DNA from: a virus
Length of the DNA stretch: 33,484 nt
IMG/VR virus record: IMGVR_UViG_3300011258_000676
Location: 1-33,484 of that record
Direction: 5' to 3' (one strand)
Shown here: positions 7,630-14,862 of the stretch, piece by piece
Numbering within the stretch: the stretch's first letter is position 1
Layout of the letters: the number at the start of each line of letters is the position of its first letter
Notes under the pieces: generated by a model
Told to the model about the DNA's origin: nothing
Seen by the model: only the letters and a program-made list of their open reading frames with translations
Databases searched by the model: none
Position numbers and translations under genes: made by a program

Positions 7630-7768
7630 AAGGTTCCTCCAGCCGTATGTAATCACCTATAGCGGGGAATAACCAGTCTTGCACTGGTAAACAAGCCTGC
7701 CAATTCACGGGTTGGACACAGTTCATCACGACTGTTGTCCAAAACGCACTGATATATCCCCAGTTCAT
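7550..7768 (-). CDS. Possible small protein (72 aa), ATGA-coupled to the peptidase gene
   Basis: ATG 7766-7768 overlaps the stop of the C39-like gene as ATGA, as for real genes in this genome. The N-terminal half (MNWGYISAFWTTVVMNC) is hydrophobic and may be membrane-bound. The last third reads in another frame across the 81-aa gene and has shadow-like composition (GGQTEPGRRTNP). It fills an otherwise empty gap of 135 bp, so a short real gene is possible. Confidence 0.35.
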   Translation of the reverse strand: MNWGYISAFWTTVVMNCVQPVNWQACLPVQDWLFPAIGDYIRLEEPYASEKRALKQFRLDGGQTEPGRRTNP

Positions 7769-8484
7769 CGATCAACAAATACAGCCCAGCCGCTTGCTTC
7801 TCCTTCGATAGACCAGCGTTGATAGAAAGCAGGCCGGGACATTCTGATCAACTCACCAGACTTTGTGGTGTCGTGGCCGCCATGCTCCATGTCTGGCTTG
7901 CCCATCGGATCCATGGCAATGAAATCATCTTTGTCGTAACCGACAATCACACTCCAATGACCACAGCCTTCGCTGTCGCACACCGCTGGGTTGCCTTTGG
8001 TCAGATCACCCTTATGGAGCCAGCCAACCATGATTGGCCTGCCAGCATCGATCTCAATCTCAATGTCCTCAACCCTGGCGTCCCTGCGAAAATCAGCGTC
8101 AAGGCCAAGTGATCTCAACGCAGACACCTGAGCGTGAACTTCTGTCGTGTCGCCAAACTTACGGCGTACATGACGATAAGCGTCTTGGCTTTTTACGCCA
8201 TGGTGGAAGGCAACGACCATACTTGCAGCGGCGTCGAAGCACTCACGCGCTCCGTACCCCGTGGGGCTCAATAGCTGATTGTGATACGGGACGCCGTAAA
8301 CCTCTTGGTGAATGCCGCTTGTCTTCCACATCTCAAACCATTCAGCCTCGTCGTCTAGTAGATCTTGATCGATCGACTTCTCTAGCTCCGCAATCGCAGC
8401 CAGCTGATGGGGATCACCTTTCTTGAAAAACTGGAAGAAAGGAAGCAAGGATAATAAAGCCACAACTACGACCCACAGCCACAT
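7765..8484 (-). CDS. Membrane-anchored C39-like cysteine peptidase (candidate lysin)
   Basis: A 239-aa protein with an N-terminal signal-anchor (WLWVVVVALLSLLPFFQFF, residues 2-20) and a papain-like C39 fold: oxyanion Gln near Q70 (VPYHNQ), Cys82 in ECFDAAASMV, His176 in GHWSVIVGYD and Asp192 in MDPMG. I recall close relatives in T4-like cyanophages. Its position with small membrane proteins suggests host lysis, cutting peptide bonds of the cell wall after export, but the true substrate is not known. Its ATG follows the stop of the 57-aa gene directly (TAAATG). Confidence 0.7.
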   Translation of the reverse strand: MWLWVVVVALLSLLPFFQFFKKGDPHQLAAIAELEKSIDQDLLDDEAEWFEMWKTSGIHQEVYGVPYHNQLLSPTGYGARECFDAAASMVVAFHHGVKSQDAYRHVRRKFGDTTEVHAQVSALRSLGLDADFRRDARVEDIEIEIDAGRPIMVGWLHKGDLTKGNPAVCDSEGCGHWSVIVGYDKDDFIAMDPMGKPDMEHGGHDTTKSGELIRMSRPAFYQRWSIEGEASGWAVFVDR

Positions 8485-8658
8485 TTATTTTTCGATGCGC
8501 TCCGCAGGAAATAGGTTTGATTTCACGAAATCCACCACCTTGTCGTCAACGGTGTTGTCGGTGGTTTTGCAATATGCGGTCAAAAGATCAACCACGAGCT
8601 TTTTGACGCCGTTTGATTGCAAGAAACGAAACAGGATCGGGCGGATTAATAGAAGCAT
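8485..8658 (-). CDS. Small conserved-type protein (57 aa), lysis region
   Basis: A 57-aa ORF starting MLLLIRPILFRFLQ, with an amphipathic N-terminus and the pattern 'KTTDNTVDDKVVDFVKSNLF'. I recall this layout from cyanophage genomes beside the C39-like peptidase. The stop codon abuts the peptidase start. The function may be lysis timing or enzyme partner; nothing in the sequence decides this. Confidence 0.65.
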   Translation of the reverse strand: MLLLIRPILFRFLQSNGVKKLVVDLLTAYCKTTDNTVDDKVVDFVKSNLFPAERIEK

Positions 8659-8682
8659 CGGAGACCTGTATGTGCCGGAAGT

Positions 8683-8934
8683 CTAGTGTCTGTCTTGGAT
8701 GCCTTCAAGACGAGCAATCGCCCTTTCGGCGTCGCTAAGCCTGGCAAACACTTCTGTGGAGACGGCGGCCTGCTCTCTACGGAAAAGATCGACTTGAGAG
8801 CTTAAATTGTCTACAGCACTTGTGAGGCGGACCAACGTATCACGACCTTGCAGGCTTTCGCGGCTTGCACTCTTGACAGCGAGGGCACCCGCCCCCACGC
8901 TTGCCCCAGCTATAGCCGCCCAAACCTCTACCAC
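8683..8934 (-). CDS. Small membrane-anchored coiled-coil protein (83 aa; spanin/holin-like?)
   Basis: A GTG start at 8934 (an in-frame stop lies just upstream). Residues 3-22 (VWAAIAGASVGAGALAV) are a short Gly/Ala-rich membrane segment; the rest is a heptad-like helical region (LTSAVDNLSSQVDLF ... AERAIARLEG). A membrane anchor plus coiled coil in a lysis region suggests a spanin- or holin-associated protein. I recall homologues in cyanophages. Only 26 bp separate it from the divergent gene at 8961. Confidence 0.65.
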   Translation of the reverse strand: MVEVWAAIAGASVGAGALAVKSASRESLQGRDTLVRLTSAVDNLSSQVDLFRREQAAVSTEVFARLSDAERAIARLEGIQDRH

Positions 8935-8960: not shown

Positions 8961-9227
8961 ATGGCAGAAGAACAGGTTAAGCAGGAGCACGAACCAGAAT
9001 CAACAGCTTTGGCGGATTTTGTAAAACTGGCCGTTTTGACATGGTCGATTGTGATGCTCAGCCTTAACTACCTGGGTTATGTCAAAGCAATGGACCCAAC
9101 ATTCCCTGCGTCGTTGCTTACTGGAACGATGACCAGCTTTGGCGTCAACATCAAACGCGCCAATGGCAAGAAAAAAGATGAGCCGCCTACACTTAAAGAA
9201 GAAACCCCTACCTCCAAGCCAAAATGA
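8961..9227 (+). CDS. Small membrane protein (88 aa; holin-like candidate)
   Basis: A charged N-terminus, one clear membrane segment (about residues 22-45: VKLAVLTWSIVMLSLNYLGY), a second weaker hydrophobic stretch (FPASLLTGTMTSFGVNI) and a Lys/Glu-rich tail. Two helices with a charged C-terminus fit a small holin-like protein. It is the first gene of the rightward cassette and is coupled to the next gene by ATGA (9224-9227). Confidence 0.6.
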   Translation: MAEEQVKQEHEPESTALADFVKLAVLTWSIVMLSLNYLGYVKAMDPTFPASLLTGTMTSFGVNIKRANGKKKDEPPTLKEETPTSKPK

Positions 9228-9721
9228 GGCGTTTTCTTTTTGTATCGTGCCTAACATTTTTTGCGATAAGTCCTGCTTCGGCAGACATTGCGCACGCTAT
9301 TAAATCCTCAATCTCACTAACTGTTGATGGAGCGGGATCAATCTCAACGCGCGTACCTTCTTCAGTGGCGGTATCTGGCTCTAACGTCACTTTGGGTACT
9401 GCTCCTGCTTTGGGGACACTTACTTCCGGTACTGCTGTTGGCTACACTCCTGGCGCTTACACTATTACTACTGCTGGTGACGCTTTTTCATATACAGAGT
9501 CGTACATAGAAGGTGATGACGTCCCAACCGTATTGTCTACAACTGTCACTGCTGGCGTAGTACCAGCTATGCCTATTTTTGGCAGTAACACCACAACTTC
9601 TGGCGGTGTAGCTGGCACTTTGGCTGGAACGATTGCAACAGATGGCGCACTAGCGATTACTGCTGGTGGAGCAGGTACAACTGCAATCGGACAAGTCATT
9701 CAAGAGCTAACGATTAGATGA
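9224..9721 (+). CDS. Exported cyanophage protein, first of three (165 aa)
   Basis: A classical Sec signal peptide (MRRFLFVSCLTFFAISPASA, cleavage after about residue 20) is followed by a Ser/Thr/Gly-rich beta protein (AIKSSISLTVDGAGSISTR; ITAGGAGTTAIGQ). I recall a family like this, always with the next two genes, in T4-like marine cyanophages. Function unknown; it should act in the periplasm or outside the infected cell, or on the virion. Coupled by ATGA on both sides. Confidence 0.75.
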   Translation: MRRFLFVSCLTFFAISPASADIAHAIKSSISLTVDGAGSISTRVPSSVAVSGSNVTLGTAPALGTLTSGTAVGYTPGAYTITTAGDAFSYTESYIEGDDVPTVLSTTVTAGVVPAMPIFGSNTTTSGGVAGTLAGTIATDGALAITAGGAGTTAIGQVIQELTIR

Positions 9722-10140
9722 GAATCCTGCTGCTGTTGCTTTTGGCTGCTCCAGCGGCAGCAATTCCTGTAGTGCCAAATTTTCAGCAAGGTGTTCTGTC
9801 TTCCACGACACGCACCAAAACAAAAGTGACTGAAGTGATCAACTCATACGAGTACAGAACAGGATATGAGTACAGCGCAAGCGGAACTAATATTGCCCCG
9901 ATTGGTGGCAGCATTGCTCCGGCTAGTCTGACCACAACAACAAACACTCTCAATGGTGTTTCTAGTCGCTGGACTGGTCTTGACCCTGCTAGCAAACCTA
10001 CTTGGAACATCGTCACCCAAGGTGCATCATTTCAGTTCGTCGAAACGCTCCAAGGGCCGGGACTTACAAATCACACCCTGATCAACAGAGAAACAGACAT
10101 TGAATCCTTAACAGAGACGACAAGCACCTTCAGCCAATGA
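9718..10140 (+). CDS. Exported cyanophage protein, second of three (140 aa)
   Basis: Signal peptide MRILLLLLLAAPAAA (cleavage after about residue 15), then a beta-rich Ser/Thr domain with the pattern 'KVTEVINSYEYRTGYEYSASGTN' split by conserved Gly, 'SRWTGLDPASKPTW' and a C-terminal 'LTNHTLINRETDIESLTET'. It resembles from memory the second member of the cyanomyovirus trio. Function unknown. ATGA overlaps at both ends. Confidence 0.75.
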   Translation: MRILLLLLLAAPAAAIPVVPNFQQGVLSSTTRTKTKVTEVINSYEYRTGYEYSASGTNIAPIGGSIAPASLTTTTNTLNGVSSRWTGLDPASKPTWNIVTQGASFQFVETLQGPGLTNHTLINRETDIESLTETTSTFSQ

Positions 10141-10871
10141 AGCGAGTTATCGCAACGCTTTTGCTACTAACCGCTCCAGCACAAGCACAGGTCTCAAGCA
10201 CTGCCGCTCCAGTAGCAAACAGCTCAGGCTCAGTCACTAACCAGGCTGTTCAGGTCGTACCAGCAAGACAATTTACCAATACTTACGGCGGCGGGATTAG
10301 CTGCCAAGGCGCAACGCTAAGCATCAACCCTTTCATCAGTACAACAACAGGTTGGGCACAACCATACGAAAGCCACTACAACGAACCTGTATATGACACG
10401 ATCGATGTTGTTGGTGCGCTTGACCCTGAAGGCAATCCTGTCCCAGATGGCAGACCAGACAATCCGGGCGATATCCTCTTTTACAAGCCAATTAGAACAG
10501 GACAAAAAACAAACCTATCGATTAACGGCGGCATCACTGCCACAATTTCGATACCGCTGGATCGTCATCACGTACGAACTTGTCGTAAAGCCGCCGAAAA
10601 ACAGGTGGCACTTCTAGACGCAACACTTGCAGACAAAAGACTGAACTACGAAATTGCAAGGCTTAAAAATTGCGCTGGCTTAATGAAAGAAGGCATCATG
10701 TTTCACCCCAAGTCGCCGTACAGCAAAATCTGTGCTGATGTTGTCCTGACTAACCCGCCAGGCGTCCTGCCGCCCCACACACATTCAATCCCTACTTTTT
10801 CAGAGACCGCTGAAACTTCCGACGCTGCCAAGCCGACTCAACAACAACCTTCTTCCCCAGCTTCTCCTTAA
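10137..10871 (+). CDS. Exported cyanophage protein, third of three (244 aa)
   Basis: Signal peptide MKRVIATLLLLTAPAQA (about 17 residues). The central region has 'YGGGISCQGATLSINPF', a 'RPDNPGDILFYKP' stretch and a C-terminal segment with paired Cys (RTCRKAAEKQ, LKNCAGLM, SKICADVV) and helix 'DKRLNYEIARLKNC'. I recall the same order of motifs in T4-like cyanophage proteins. The Pro/Ser/Thr-rich tail reads convergently over 80 nt of the gene on the other strand. Envelope or secreted role inferred from the signal peptide. Confidence 0.75.
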   Translation: MKRVIATLLLLTAPAQAQVSSTAAPVANSSGSVTNQAVQVVPARQFTNTYGGGISCQGATLSINPFISTTTGWAQPYESHYNEPVYDTIDVVGALDPEGNPVPDGRPDNPGDILFYKPIRTGQKTNLSINGGITATISIPLDRHHVRTCRKAAEKQVALLDATLADKRLNYEIARLKNCAGLMKEGIMFHPKSPYSKICADVVLTNPPGVLPPHTHSIPTFSETAETSDAAKPTQQQPSSPASP

Positions 10872-11562
10872 TTTTCTTGATCGTCTTTTTGACGATAGGC
10901 TTGATCGCTTTTAACAGAATGTCGCCTAATGGTTTGGCCAGGATGGCGCTTGTAACGCCTATCGCGGCAACTCCCGCAGTCGTAAAAGCAGCAGGCGCAG
11001 AAGGAGCCCAAAGGCCGACAATCGTTGGTATGTCCAACGGGTCGAGCTGTGCTTTGCATTCTCCATTGATCCGTTCATAGCCAATAATCACTGCAGTCTG
11101 CTGTTTATTTTTACTTCCAATGGGCCTGGCATCGACTGGCGGGCATGGCAGTTCTGTGTCTACATTTGGAATGCCGGTTGGGTTGGACGCCGCCGGTGAA
11201 GGGGACTGAGCCGGTTGCTGGGAGGCAGCCGGTTTTTCTTTTGGTGCCTCAATTGCTGGCGGTTTAGCTGGCCCATAAGTCAACGTGCCAGGTGTAATGT
11301 CCATCGCGTTAAACGACGGCATCGTTCCATCGCAAACAGTGAAGTTGCCCCGCTTATCTGTGTAAGCGTCTGGATTTCCAGGCTGTGCATTTCTGGTCTC
11401 AACGCAGCCAGGTATATCCGCAACCGGAAAACCCAGCATTAAGGTAATTGGTGGCTCCTGCGGAATACTTTGCGGTGGGATGCCCCTCCAAGCTGGTATT
11501 TCTGGAACGTAAACACGCCCCACACCAATGGACCCCACACCTACTTCAGGGATTTCAGGCAT
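10792..11562 (-). CDS. Conserved cyanophage protein MPEIPEVG type (256 aa)
   Basis: The ATG at 11562 (MPEIPEVGVG) is chosen over a GTG two codons upstream because the family, as I recall it in T4-like cyanophages, starts there. Residues 1-90 are a Pro/Gly-rich region with Cys (PGCVETRN, FTVCDGTMPSFN); 90-130 is a low-complexity Pro/Ser/Ala linker; a hydrophobic segment (FTTAGVAAIGVTSAILAKPL) near 195 and a very basic C-terminus (KKTIKKIKEKLGKK) suggest membrane binding with DNA- or lipid-contacting tail. Virion or envelope association is likely but unproven. Confidence 0.7.
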   Translation of the reverse strand: MPEIPEVGVGSIGVGRVYVPEIPAWRGIPPQSIPQEPPITLMLGFPVADIPGCVETRNAQPGNPDAYTDKRGNFTVCDGTMPSFNAMDITPGTLTYGPAKPPAIEAPKEKPAASQQPAQSPSPAASNPTGIPNVDTELPCPPVDARPIGSKNKQQTAVIIGYERINGECKAQLDPLDIPTIVGLWAPSAPAAFTTAGVAAIGVTSAILAKPLGDILLKAIKPIVKKTIKKIKEKLGKKVVVESAWQRRKFQRSLKK

Positions 11563-11701
11563 GACCACAAATCAAAAGGCCAAGCAACGTTTTAAGCCTG
11601 AAGACCATCATGATGCAGAGCTTTTAGATGCACTTCACGCAAGTGGTCAAGGCGCATCCATTCCAGACACTTCTAAAAAGGTGCCTTCAAACCGTTCTTA
11701 A
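11561..11701 (+). CDS. Possible small rightward gene (46 aa)
   Basis: ATG 11561 shares its CATG with the start codon of the leftward gene. The 46-aa product (MTTNQKAKQRFKPEDHHDAE...) is hydrophilic and has protein-like composition; it fills the 110-bp gap between two leftward genes. There is no promoter or ribosome site that I can point to. Confidence 0.3.
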   Translation: MTTNQKAKQRFKPEDHHDAELLDALHASGQGASIPDTSKKVPSNRS

Positions 11702-11915
11702 TTACTGGGCCTGTTGCTGATGGCAACTCAGGCATCACATCATCGATCTTGGCTGGCACCATTTGAGTTATTACTTTTGTCAGCTCTAGCTTTAGCTCAC
11801 TCATGTAATACTTCGTCAGCGATGGGATCCTTGTGTAAAGCACCAACGACCCAACAACCATCGTTCCAGACATTACAAAACCTAGAACGCCGAGCAGGTT
11901 AAAAACCTTTTGCAT
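11673..11915 (-). CDS. Small cyanophage membrane protein (80 aa)
   Basis: An N-terminal membrane helix (VFNLLGVLGFVMSGTMVVGSLVLY) is followed by an amphipathic region and a conserved-looking C-terminus (MPELPSATGPV...APF). I recall closely similar proteins in T4-like cyanophages. Function unknown. It lies just after the terminator of the porin-like gene, so it needs its own promoter or read-through. Confidence 0.65.
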   Translation of the reverse strand: MQKVFNLLGVLGFVMSGTMVVGSLVLYTRIPSLTKYYMSELKLELTKVITQMVPAKIDDVMPELPSATGPVIKNGLKAPF

Positions 11916-11926
11916 GATCAGGCTCC

Positions 11927-11964
11927 AAAGAAAAACCTCCCTTGCTGTGTGAGACCAAGGGAGG
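11927..11964 (-). terminator. Strong intrinsic terminator after the porin-like gene
   Basis: On the minus strand CCTCCCTTG pairs with CAAGGGAGG (11956-11964 and 11936-11944), a 9-bp GC-rich stem with an 11-nt loop, followed by TTTTTCTTT (11927-11935). It lies 30 bp after the stop of the gene at 11994. Confidence 0.9.
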
Positions 11965-11993
11965 TGCAGTTGCTCTTCCGGCTAAATGCTAGC

Positions 11994-12356
11994 TCAGAAT
12001 CCGTACTTGAGTCCCAGCTTGGAACCCCAGCTAAATTCGTCGCCAGTTACGCCGCTGAGTTCTCCGTAAACAGAAACGTTTTCAGCAACGGCAACCGAGC
12101 CACCGAATTTACCGGCAAACTCAACTTCGTTTTCGGATCCTTGCGGCATGATGATGGCAGGGCCGCCTTGGACGAACCAGGAATAAGCGCCTTCACCGCC
12201 TTCATAACCAACGTCAAGATTCAGCGCACCACCTAAGTAATCGTCGCCAACAGTTGCACCGTTGAACTCAGGATTTAGATAAGGACCAGCGAGGGCAGAC
12301 GTTGGTGCCAATGCAACTGCCGTAGCGGCTGCAGAAAGAACAAAAGACTTGATCAT
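11994..12356 (-). CDS. Exported small outer-membrane-barrel-like protein (120 aa)
   Basis: A signal peptide (MIKSFVLSAAATAVALAPTSALA, cleavage after about residue 23) is followed by alternating beta strands typical of a short OmpA/opacity-like barrel (LGGALNLDVGYEGG, SWFVQGGPAI, GGSVAVAENVSVYGELSG, ending LGLKYGF with a terminal Phe). Similar proteins are common in marine cyanophages, as I recall. The terminal Phe is the usual signal for outer-membrane assembly. It has its own terminator and probably its own promoter, so it may be expressed at a different time from the tail genes. Confidence 0.75.
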   Translation of the reverse strand: MIKSFVLSAAATAVALAPTSALAGPYLNPEFNGATVGDDYLGGALNLDVGYEGGEGAYSWFVQGGPAIIMPQGSENEVEFAGKFGGSVAVAENVSVYGELSGVTGDEFSWGSKLGLKYGF

Positions 12357-13357: not shown

Positions 13358-14392
13358 TCAAGCGGCAGGACTAAAAGCAACACCTTGGCTAGTGCCTGTG
13401 GGCAAAGTAGAAGGGTTTGAATATTTAGTACCAAAACCTGAATCCCAAGGGTAAACACTTATGTTAGGAACAGCGAGATGCGCCACAGCTATATCCGACC
13501 CATCAGGAGTAAAGGCAACGCGATTGCCAGTGCCTGTAGGCAAAGTAGAAGGATTTGAATATTTAGCACCAAAACCTGAATTCCATGGATAAACACTAAT
13601 ATAAGGAGAAGCGCCGTGCACTACAGCTATATCTGCACTGTCAGGACTAAAGGCAACGCCAGTGCTATAGCCTGGGGGCAAAGTAGAAGGGTCTGAGTAT
13701 TTAGTACCAAAACCTGAACTCCAAGGATAAACACTAATATAAGGAGAAGCGGCATGCGCTACAGCTATATTCGACCCATCAGGGCTAAAGGCAACACCAT
13801 AGGCATAGGTTGAGGGTAAAGCAGAAGGGTCTGAGTATTTAGTACCAAAACCTGAACTCCAAGGATAAACACTAATATAAGGAGAATTTTGATGCGCTAC
13901 AGCTATATCTGCACCATCAGGACTAAAGGCAACGTCATTGCCACGGCCTGTGGGCAAAGTAGAAGGGTTTGAATATTTAGTGCTAAAACCTGAATTCCAT
14001 GGATAAACACTAATATAAGGAGAAGCGGCATATCCTACAGCTATATCTGCACCATCAGGACTAAAGGCAATACTAAAGGTACTGGATGGTGGCAAAGTAG
14101 AAGGGTTTGTATATTTAGTACCAAAACCTGAACTCCAAGGATAAACACTAATATAAGGAGAAGTGCCATGTACTACAGCTATATCTGCACCATCAGGGCT
14201 AAAGGCAACGTCATTGCCAGTGCCTTGGGGCAAAGTAGAAGGGTTTGAGTATTTAGTACCAAAGCCTGAATCCCAAGGGTAAACACTAAGGGAAGGAGAA
14301 GTGCCATGTGCTACAGCTATATCACCGCTGTACGGAACACCGCCACCTGCACCAGACGCACCAGCAAGAATGTTGCTGCCAATAACGCTCAT
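13358..14392 (-). CDS. Seven-repeat beta-propeller (WD40/YVTN-like) tail or fibre protein
   Basis: A 344-aa protein. After a short N-terminus (MSVIGSNILAGASGAGGG) it consists of seven tandem 46-aa repeats, each with DIAVxHxxSPYISVYPW, SGFGTKYSNPSTLP and VAFSPDG. Seven repeats of about 45 residues with 'FSPDG' turns are what a seven-bladed propeller needs. It is coupled to the preceding fibre gene by ATGA, which puts it in the receptor-binding region; it is probably a tail tip or host-adhesion protein. The chosen start at 14392 is preferred to 14506, whose extra sequence is Cys-rich shadow. Confidence 0.75.
   Translation of the reverse strand: MSVIGSNILAGASGAGGGVPYSGDIAVAHGTSPSLSVYPWDSGFGTKYSNPSTLPQGTGNDVAFSPDGADIAVVHGTSPYISVYPWSSGFGTKYTNPSTLPPSSTFSIAFSPDGADIAVGYAASPYISVYPWNSGFSTKYSNPSTLPTGRGNDVAFSPDGADIAVAHQNSPYISVYPWSSGFGTKYSDPSALPSTYAYGVAFSPDGSNIAVAHAASPYISVYPWSSGFGTKYSDPSTLPPGYSTGVAFSPDSADIAVVHGASPYISVYPWNSGFGAKYSNPSTLPTGTGNRVAFTPDGSDIAVAHLAVPNISVYPWDSGFGTKYSNPSTLPTGTSQGVAFSPAA
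13376..14330 (-). repeat. Seven tandem 138-bp repeats inside the propeller gene
   Basis: Unit markers (GGCAAAGTAGAAGG on the + strand) recur at 13401, 13539, 13677, 13815, 13953, 14091 and 14229, exactly 138 bp (46 codons) apart. Units are highly similar at DNA level, notably in ATAAACACTAATATAAGGAGAA, and vary mainly in short loop stretches. Confidence 0.85.
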
Positions 14393-14862
14393 GAGTAAGC
14401 CAGAGTTACAACAGAATGAATTGAGCTGGCAGATCGAACAATGTAATCCAAACGATCTACCGAGCCAGCAGCAGTGCTTAAAGTTGGTGCGGTGCCTCCA
14501 GCCCAATCAAAGTAACTGCCCCATGTGATAACGCGTGATCCAGTGCCGTCTTGCACTAAAAAGATTGATCCAGACTGGCCAGCCGTGCAGTTTGTTGGGT
14601 TAGCAAACGTCAAGGTCTCGCCCAACGTCAACGTGAAATTATTGCTTGCTGCAAAATCAGGCGTTACCGTCGAGCCACTTGTCAGCGTTGTAATTTCACC
14701 GCGCTGACTAGCGGTAAACGTCTGAGCAACATCAGTCTTTGCGGTGTCAGCATCAAACCCCTGAACAGTGCTACCAATAGCAGTTGAATCCAAGACGTTG
14801 TCAACTGTAACCGTCTTGGTGCTGGTCGTTATTGAATCGACCTTTACCGTTCCAAACGCCAT
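14389..14862 (-). CDS. Tail fibre-type structural protein (157 aa)
   Basis: N-terminal region MAFGTVKVDSITTSTKTVTVD, then a beta-rich domain (FTLTLGETLTFANPTNCTAGQSG, SRVITWGSYFDWAGG, LDYIVRSASSIHSVVTLAYS) that is common in fibre and appendage proteins of marine phages. It is coupled by ATGA to the propeller gene. A 91-bp gap with little coding potential precedes it. Confidence 0.7.
   Translation of the reverse strand: MAFGTVKVDSITTSTKTVTVDNVLDSTAIGSTVQGFDADTAKTDVAQTFTASQRGEITTLTSGSTVTPDFAASNNFTLTLGETLTFANPTNCTAGQSGSIFLVQDGTGSRVITWGSYFDWAGGTAPTLSTAAGSVDRLDYIVRSASSIHSVVTLAYS

Follow-up and report, generated by a model that had tools for sequence, protein, structure and literature searches.

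An envelope gene module shared by unrelated types of cyanophage, with a possible role in virus release

Which task at the cyanobacterial envelope could unrelated phages share, and which genes would serve it? The question is raised by a 33,484-base IMG/VR virus record (hereafter the window, the whole stretch of DNA analyzed), in which four rightward genes are embedded among leftward ones (flanks 7765-8934 and 10792-12356, minus strand). M (8961-9227, +) encodes a small, holin-like membrane protein, and A (9224-9721, +), B (9718-10140, +) and C (10137-10871, +) encode Sec-exported proteins, that of A being beta-rich. Every M/A/B/C junction is a 4-nt ATGA overlap, read directly from the sequence, and each of the three translations after that of M opens with a typical Sec signal: MRRFLFVSCLTFFAISPASA/DIA in A (codons 9224-9283), MRILLLLLLAAPAAA/IPV in B and MKRVIATLLLLTAPAQA/QVS in C. 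The earlier note had described such a coupled cassette of one membrane and three exported proteins running against its surroundings, and had placed it in a lambda-type phage with a GpA terminase; Pfam indeed matches a GpA terminase and a lambda-family portal. An envelope job is the best reading for the shared module, and among release, exclusion and surface change, release fits best.

The coordinates first proposed for the cassette, 8961-10871, hold, but the unit extends beyond position 10871. There C runs tail to tail into D (10792-11568, -), a proline-rich protein with a C-terminal membrane segment and a cationic tail. The coding overlap (10792-10871) measures 80 nt, and a C/D overlap is present in 209 of 230 loci (median 80 nt). 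Two further envelope genes follow the convergent D, namely PS (11673-11915, -), a one-TM protein of the 'plasmid stability' family, and OMP (11994-12356, -), a cyanophage outer-membrane beta-barrel protein that is a loosely attached member and adjoins PS in most lambda-type loci. As D, PS and OMP on the other strand also belong to it, the system is larger than the four proteins initially taken for the whole. Family matches were obtained for M (Pfam PF20048, DUF6450, 1.5e-12), A (phrog_564, 2e-39), B (DUF6322/phrog_650; PF19847, 3e-35), C (phrog_848, 1e-88), D (phrog_570, 1e-54), PS (phrog_568, 9e-14) and OMP (PF24653, 4e-35). Together with these matches, the low dN/dS among relatives (medians of 0.10 for M, 0.17 for A, 0.11 for B and 0.11 for C) indicates that M, A, B and C are real genes. 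Elsewhere on the minus strand, at 13358-14506, a 382-aa repeat protein with weak beta-propeller matches lies among tail genes.

The earlier note had placed the trio, in the same order, in T4-like cyanophages and had taken it to be shared by unrelated phages, and homology searches with synteny bear this out. Against annotated phages, tblastn gave 462 records with a match to C, 412 with one to B and 318 with one to A; by organism name these are cyanophages or uncultured marine viruses. Homologues occur in cyanomyoviruses, where the three genes stand together, and in phages of other virion types: A-B-C with a convergent D is present in Syn33, syn9, S-SM1, S-TIM5 and the Autographiviridae Oinezvirus AP013546. 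The Syn33 equivalents of A, B, C and D are T4-GC 237, 236, 235 and 234; M corresponds to GC 218 (BLAST matches to Syn33 GC218 and syn9 gp161) and PS to GC 414 (BLAST, 1e-13). Across 252 related loci, mostly IMG/VR contigs, the order A>B>C> followed by D< is nearly invariant, far above chance. A was recognized in 236 of these loci, B in 249, D in 233 and M in 204, the presence of C and B being biased upward because the contigs were fetched by C or B.

The system is not, as had been thought, undescribed, because Sullivan et al. (2010; PMC3037559) had already reported a mobile cluster of five hypothetical proteins (T4-GC 218, 219, 234, 235 and 237) with a plasmid stability protein in 15 of 16 cyanomyoviruses, without giving a function. 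A, C, D and M (GCs 237, 235, 234 and 218) are four of those five, while B (GC 236) is adjacent to the cluster and not among them; for GC 219, no match was recognized in lambda-type arrangements. In the window, the homologues of GC 234, 235 and 237 are grouped, with GC 218 and the plasmid stability protein associated, and A, C, D, M and PS are direct homologues that keep the A>B>C> order with its convergent D. Two layouts are the most frequent among the 252 loci. The T4-like one is A>B>C> D< (GC219<) PS< M<, whereas that of the window phage's type is LYS< w8485< M>A>B>C> D< PS< OMP<. M thus stands first in the trio operon, where the T4-like order puts it after D, an endolysin and an outer-membrane protein are attached, and the phage is of the lambda-portal/GpA kind. 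What is added to the 2010 description is that the module is also present in T7-like cyanophages, in S-TIM5 and in a GpA/lambda-portal phage.

Such a distribution invites the proposal of Sullivan et al. (2010; PMC3037559) that the cassette is kept by a mobility function of its 'plasmid stability' protein. The module's position does differ among phages and families, and S-TIM5 nests inside the T4-like clade of a C tree (support 0.79), which also has a clade of lambda-type loci (support 0.99) and a third clade that unites T7-like and cellular copies. Low dN/dS, conserved order and dedicated late promoters nevertheless imply a function for the module, the 'plasmid stability' protein of the window is a small one-TM protein, and no PS was recognized beside the P-SSP7 cassette. 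Mobility is exceedingly improbable as the explanation.

At the B/C junction of T4-like loci (e.g. L002, L003 and L087), C lacks an ATG near its signal sequence. An ATG in the other frame of B lies 41-95 codons 5' of the ANSSGSV motif of C in 43 of 45 non-redundant loci, and at 25-40 codons 5' in 0 of 45. This conserved ATG does not speak for a long, overlapping start of C, because an Asn-Gly pair in B (AATGGT) would by itself yield it.

When the module is expressed can be predicted from its T4-like copies, whose convergent operons are located among replication genes. The motif [CA]TAAATA resembles TATAAAT, the T4 late promoter sequence that Sullivan et al. (2010; PMC3037559) used. It stands before A in 63 of 78 and before M in 60 of 73 non-redundant T4-like loci, mostly 20-40 nt from the start, with gene starts assigned by expected length and single positions possibly off. 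Upstream of D it was found in 0 of 54 T4-like loci. Among other annotated genes of Syn33, syn9 and S-SM1 the background was 1 of 50 (Fisher 2e-20 and 7e-21 for A and M, respectively), the window searched being 120 nt for A, M and D and 50 nt for the background genes. The promoter of A is not universal, because in Syn33, syn9 and S-SM1 the motif lies within 50 nt of M and not of A. TAAATA is also over-represented upstream of A on the other strand, which probably reflects a divergent promoter that serves hsp20 or some other gene. The motif counts predict late expression of both convergent operons in T4-like phages, and a late motif ahead of A and M is one reason to favor release.

Because T4-like copies carry late promoters, a change of the host surface or superinfection exclusion becomes less likely. 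In that account the exported proteins and OMP would alter the outer membrane or periplasm, so as to block attachment or injection by other phages or to keep released virions off debris. Every part of the module is an envelope protein, OMP is often attached, and the module is common to phages that compete for the same hosts, as exclusion would have it. The P-SSP7-like cassette, for its part, sits in a late interval beside the terminase, and the module proteins matched no PADLOC defence family (PADLOC and NCBIfam searches gave no useful match). We consider exclusion or surface change unlikely.

In coliphage T7, the interval between fibre and terminase genes holds the holin 17.5 and the spanins 18.5/18.7. 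The corresponding interval of P-SSP7, between tail fibre genes and the small and large terminase genes, holds orf42, 43, 44 and 45, which profile matches identify as D, M, B and C (for orf42 against D, E is 4e-5 in a small set and 0.018 in a larger one). Since the P-SSP7-like cassette thereby occupies the place of the T7 holin and spanins, release is favored. The same interval contains recognizable w8485, D, M, B and C in S-TIP37, and in P-SCSP1u M (gp33), C (gp31) and w8485 by profile, with gp32, ending SLSVFSQ, B-like and gp30, proline-rich and convergent with a C-terminal TM, D-like by appearance only. That M, C and B- and D-like genes are kept in the 37.9-kb genome of P-SCSP1u also speaks for release. 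The family of w8485 (8485-8658, -; a small protein, phrog_2738) recurs in the fibre-terminase interval of P-SSP7, Syn5, S-TIP37 and P-SCSP1u, and S-CBP1 has a LYS-family lysozyme there. The P-SSP7 member is an unannotated small ORF between orf45 and orf46 (39183-39341; L276 14184-14342; E 6e-16). Three contigs of Prochlorococcus-type and freshwater genomes (L269, L270, L271) show a fibre-D-M-C-w8485-terminase neighborhood; A and B were not recognized in them, and short ORFs were possibly missed by the ORF selection.

Late promoters and the closeness to fibre genes in P-SSP7 would also suit proteins of the virion or of its assembly. The Sec signals of A, B and C are, however, unexpected for virions assembled in the cytoplasm, and a virion role is highly unlikely. 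GenBank product names of S-SM1 were discarded as a guide to virion membership, the virion-positive GC969 being labelled hypothetical.

Next to M in most lambda-type loci, which again favors release, lies LYS (7765-8484, -), a C39-like peptidase endolysin (PF13529, 5e-9; phrog_10051 'endolysin', 2e-50) whose relatives, e.g. in S-CBS1 and S-CBP2, are annotated as lysozyme or endolysin. Its N-terminal membrane segment (residues 2-20) ahead of the catalytic domain recalls SAR endolysins of the P21 R21 type, from which it differs as a C39-like peptidase without the lysozyme fold; its release from the membrane is putative. M itself has a strong hydrophobic segment at residues 17-35 and a weaker second one, one being clear at a stricter threshold, whereas hydropathy gives two segments in 156 of 203 relatives. 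The tail is charged. Most relatives thereby share the layout of class II holins (two TMs, N-in/C-in, charged tail), and the P-SSP7 copy of M falls in the interval that in T7 contains holin 17.5; in contrast to those holins, candidate holin M matched no described holin family in Pfam, PHROG and NCBIfam searches. Between w8485 and M, a small protein with an N-terminal TM (1-19) and a coiled coil (8683-8934, -; phrog_26178, 2e-14) resembles Syn5 gp47, S-CBS1 gp21 and S-CBP1 gp41 in layout. All four are i-spanin-like in layout and encoded near endolysins or terminase, and proteins of this type occur also in phages without the module.

The membrane segment of D comprises residues 193-211 (about 10936-10992). 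D carries four cysteines, as do 204 of 216 members of its family, whose median tail charge is +14, and release is favored because of this pairing of four cysteines with a cationic tail. The C family has four invariant cysteines in alignment. The module would act at the same step as two-component spanins (lambda Rz/Rz1; T7 18.5/18.7), occupies their T7 interval in P-SSP7-like phages, and likewise combines a predicted inner-membrane partner with exported partners and overlapping genes. It is nonetheless not a canonical spanin, because B, C, D and M have no lipobox close to their signals and the module shows no extended coiled coil. The lipobox scan applied a simple pattern to residues 1-45 of a single copy of each protein (A-D and M), taken from the window or from a reference phage, and the single match, in A, falls within its signal peptide, so that no lipoprotein of the o-spanin kind was found among them. 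A-D also lack an i-spanin with N-terminal TM and coiled coil, the module has more components, and D is anchored at its C-terminus, unlike the N-terminally anchored protein at 8683-8934. D shares a C-terminal membrane segment with the unimolecular spanin T1 gp11 and differs from it in having neither lipobox nor signal, a recognizable signal peptide being absent from most D copies.

Twenty phages of Prochlorococcus and Synechococcus were counted as spanin-less by Kongari et al. (2018), among them P-HM1, P-HM2, P-SSM2, P-SSM4, Syn1, Syn9, Syn19, Syn33, S-SM1, S-SM2, S-SSM5, S-SSM7 and P-SSP7, and also S-PM2, P-SS2 and Syn5. The host membrane may be fragile, or an inner-membrane protein with a C-terminal TMD may act with an outer-membrane protein instead of a spanin (Kongari et al., 2018). 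Most of the names from P-HM1 to P-SSP7 recur among the phage matches of M, A, B or C, and the presence of many module-bearing phages in that table favors release.

The structures of the exported proteins bear on a different possibility. The AF2 model of B (pLDDT 88) has long terminal strands at residues 9-32 and 100-124, and that of C, which shows long strands and a helix of 42 residues, is poor (pLDDT 65). Judging from hhalign (85%, pairwise E 6e-6) and a non-iterated profile (best E 4e-5), A and B are probably distant paralogues; the kinship is taken from these two only, because an iterated A profile absorbed B. It could be imagined that A and B assemble at the outer membrane into a ring, a tube or a filament that serves virion egress or late nutrient uptake, in keeping with their relatedness, with the well-modelled terminal strands of 24-25 residues in B, and with weak best Foldseek matches that include beta-barrel pores. 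The strands are largely polar on both faces, though, and Foldseek gave no PDB fold match at E below 1e-3 for the B and C models; profiles of A, B and C against sequences of solved structures gave chance-level matches only. A pore or polymer is distinctly unlikely.

Copies also exist outside phages. Scanning genomes with C gave four loci, one of which (L245, in a Crocinitomicaceae MAG) is 86% identical to the window C, has phage genes around it and is most likely a phage contig. The other three are freshwater cyanobacterial MAGs with A-B-C, on contigs of 85 kb (L246), 12.8 kb (L247) and 120 kb (L248) that also hold gltA, ndhA, ndhI, ndhG and ndhE several kb off (named from translations). In all three, A-B-C lies downstream of gltA-ndhAIGE, and genes for a membrane protein of 272-280 aa and for a small exported protein come before it. 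L246 and L247 continue with a D-like gene in convergent orientation (profile E 2e-4 in the former and 6e-4 in the latter); the L246 contig ends just past this gene and the L247 contig within it. No D-like gene was seen in L248, whose contig ends soon after C, and neither M nor an endolysin stands beside A-B-C in the three MAGs. DUF6322 occurs in 3 of 42 genomes of the MAGs' genus group and in 1 of 386 sampled from the phylum. Host C is under strong purifying selection (dN/dS 0.02-0.07, some pairs near saturation). Such chromosomal copies could be domesticated protection, which would suit exclusion, whereas a lysis role does not explain cellular A-B-C with a selected host C, and this is a weakness of the release reading.

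The release reading rests on gene order, signal peptides, family links, late-promoter motifs in T4-like copies, position and purifying selection. Position and timing suggest that the module helps the virus leave the cell. What the copies have in common is that they form a late envelope module, placed and flanked like a lysis cassette; that it serves release is close to an even call. M would act as a holin-like protein in the inner membrane, and LYS, next to M and with its own membrane anchor, would cut peptidoglycan in the window phage. D would be anchored in the inner membrane by its C-terminal segment, and its arm would be rich in proline and cysteine-bonded. After export through Sec, B and C, and A in most phages, would come together with D, either within the periplasm or at the outer membrane. 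We infer that the exported proteins form a complex with D there, which would breach the outer membrane and so do the work of Rz/Rz1-type spanins.

The release reading has further weak points. The module is not required by every cyanophage, because M and A-D were not found in S-PM2 (searched by profile in full), P-SS2 (to 100 kb of 107.5 kb), S-CBS1, S-CBP1 (the stretch read) or Syn5 (last 18 kb). Export of a long N-terminal arm would be unusual for D, which has no signal, Foldseek brought up no solved relative of B or C, and M matches no known holin family. S-PM2 (L280 15534-18229, p156-p161), which alone among the 16 cyanomyoviruses lacks the cluster, encodes a LYS homologue (p156, a C39-like endolysin) with a lysozyme-like fragment nearby. 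Close to p156 it also encodes an exported protein that is RlpA-like (p160) and a protein with a lipobox (p161). The p156/p160/p161 group may be that phage's own solution.

D with the exported non-lipoproteins B, C and usually A, and with holin-like M, may represent a further kind of outer-membrane breaching, common to T4-like, T7-like, S-TIM5-like and GpA/lambda-portal phages and kept in part, under purifying selection, in freshwater cyanobacterial chromosomes; we advance this tentatively, as possible and on balance doubtful. For the question of how phages of Prochlorococcus and Synechococcus breach the outer membrane, the module offers a concrete gene set common to several unrelated phage types. 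If the release reading is true, genes listed as 'hypothetical' ever since 2010 would gain a function, and the cellular A-B-C raises the question of why some cyanobacteria carry the trio.
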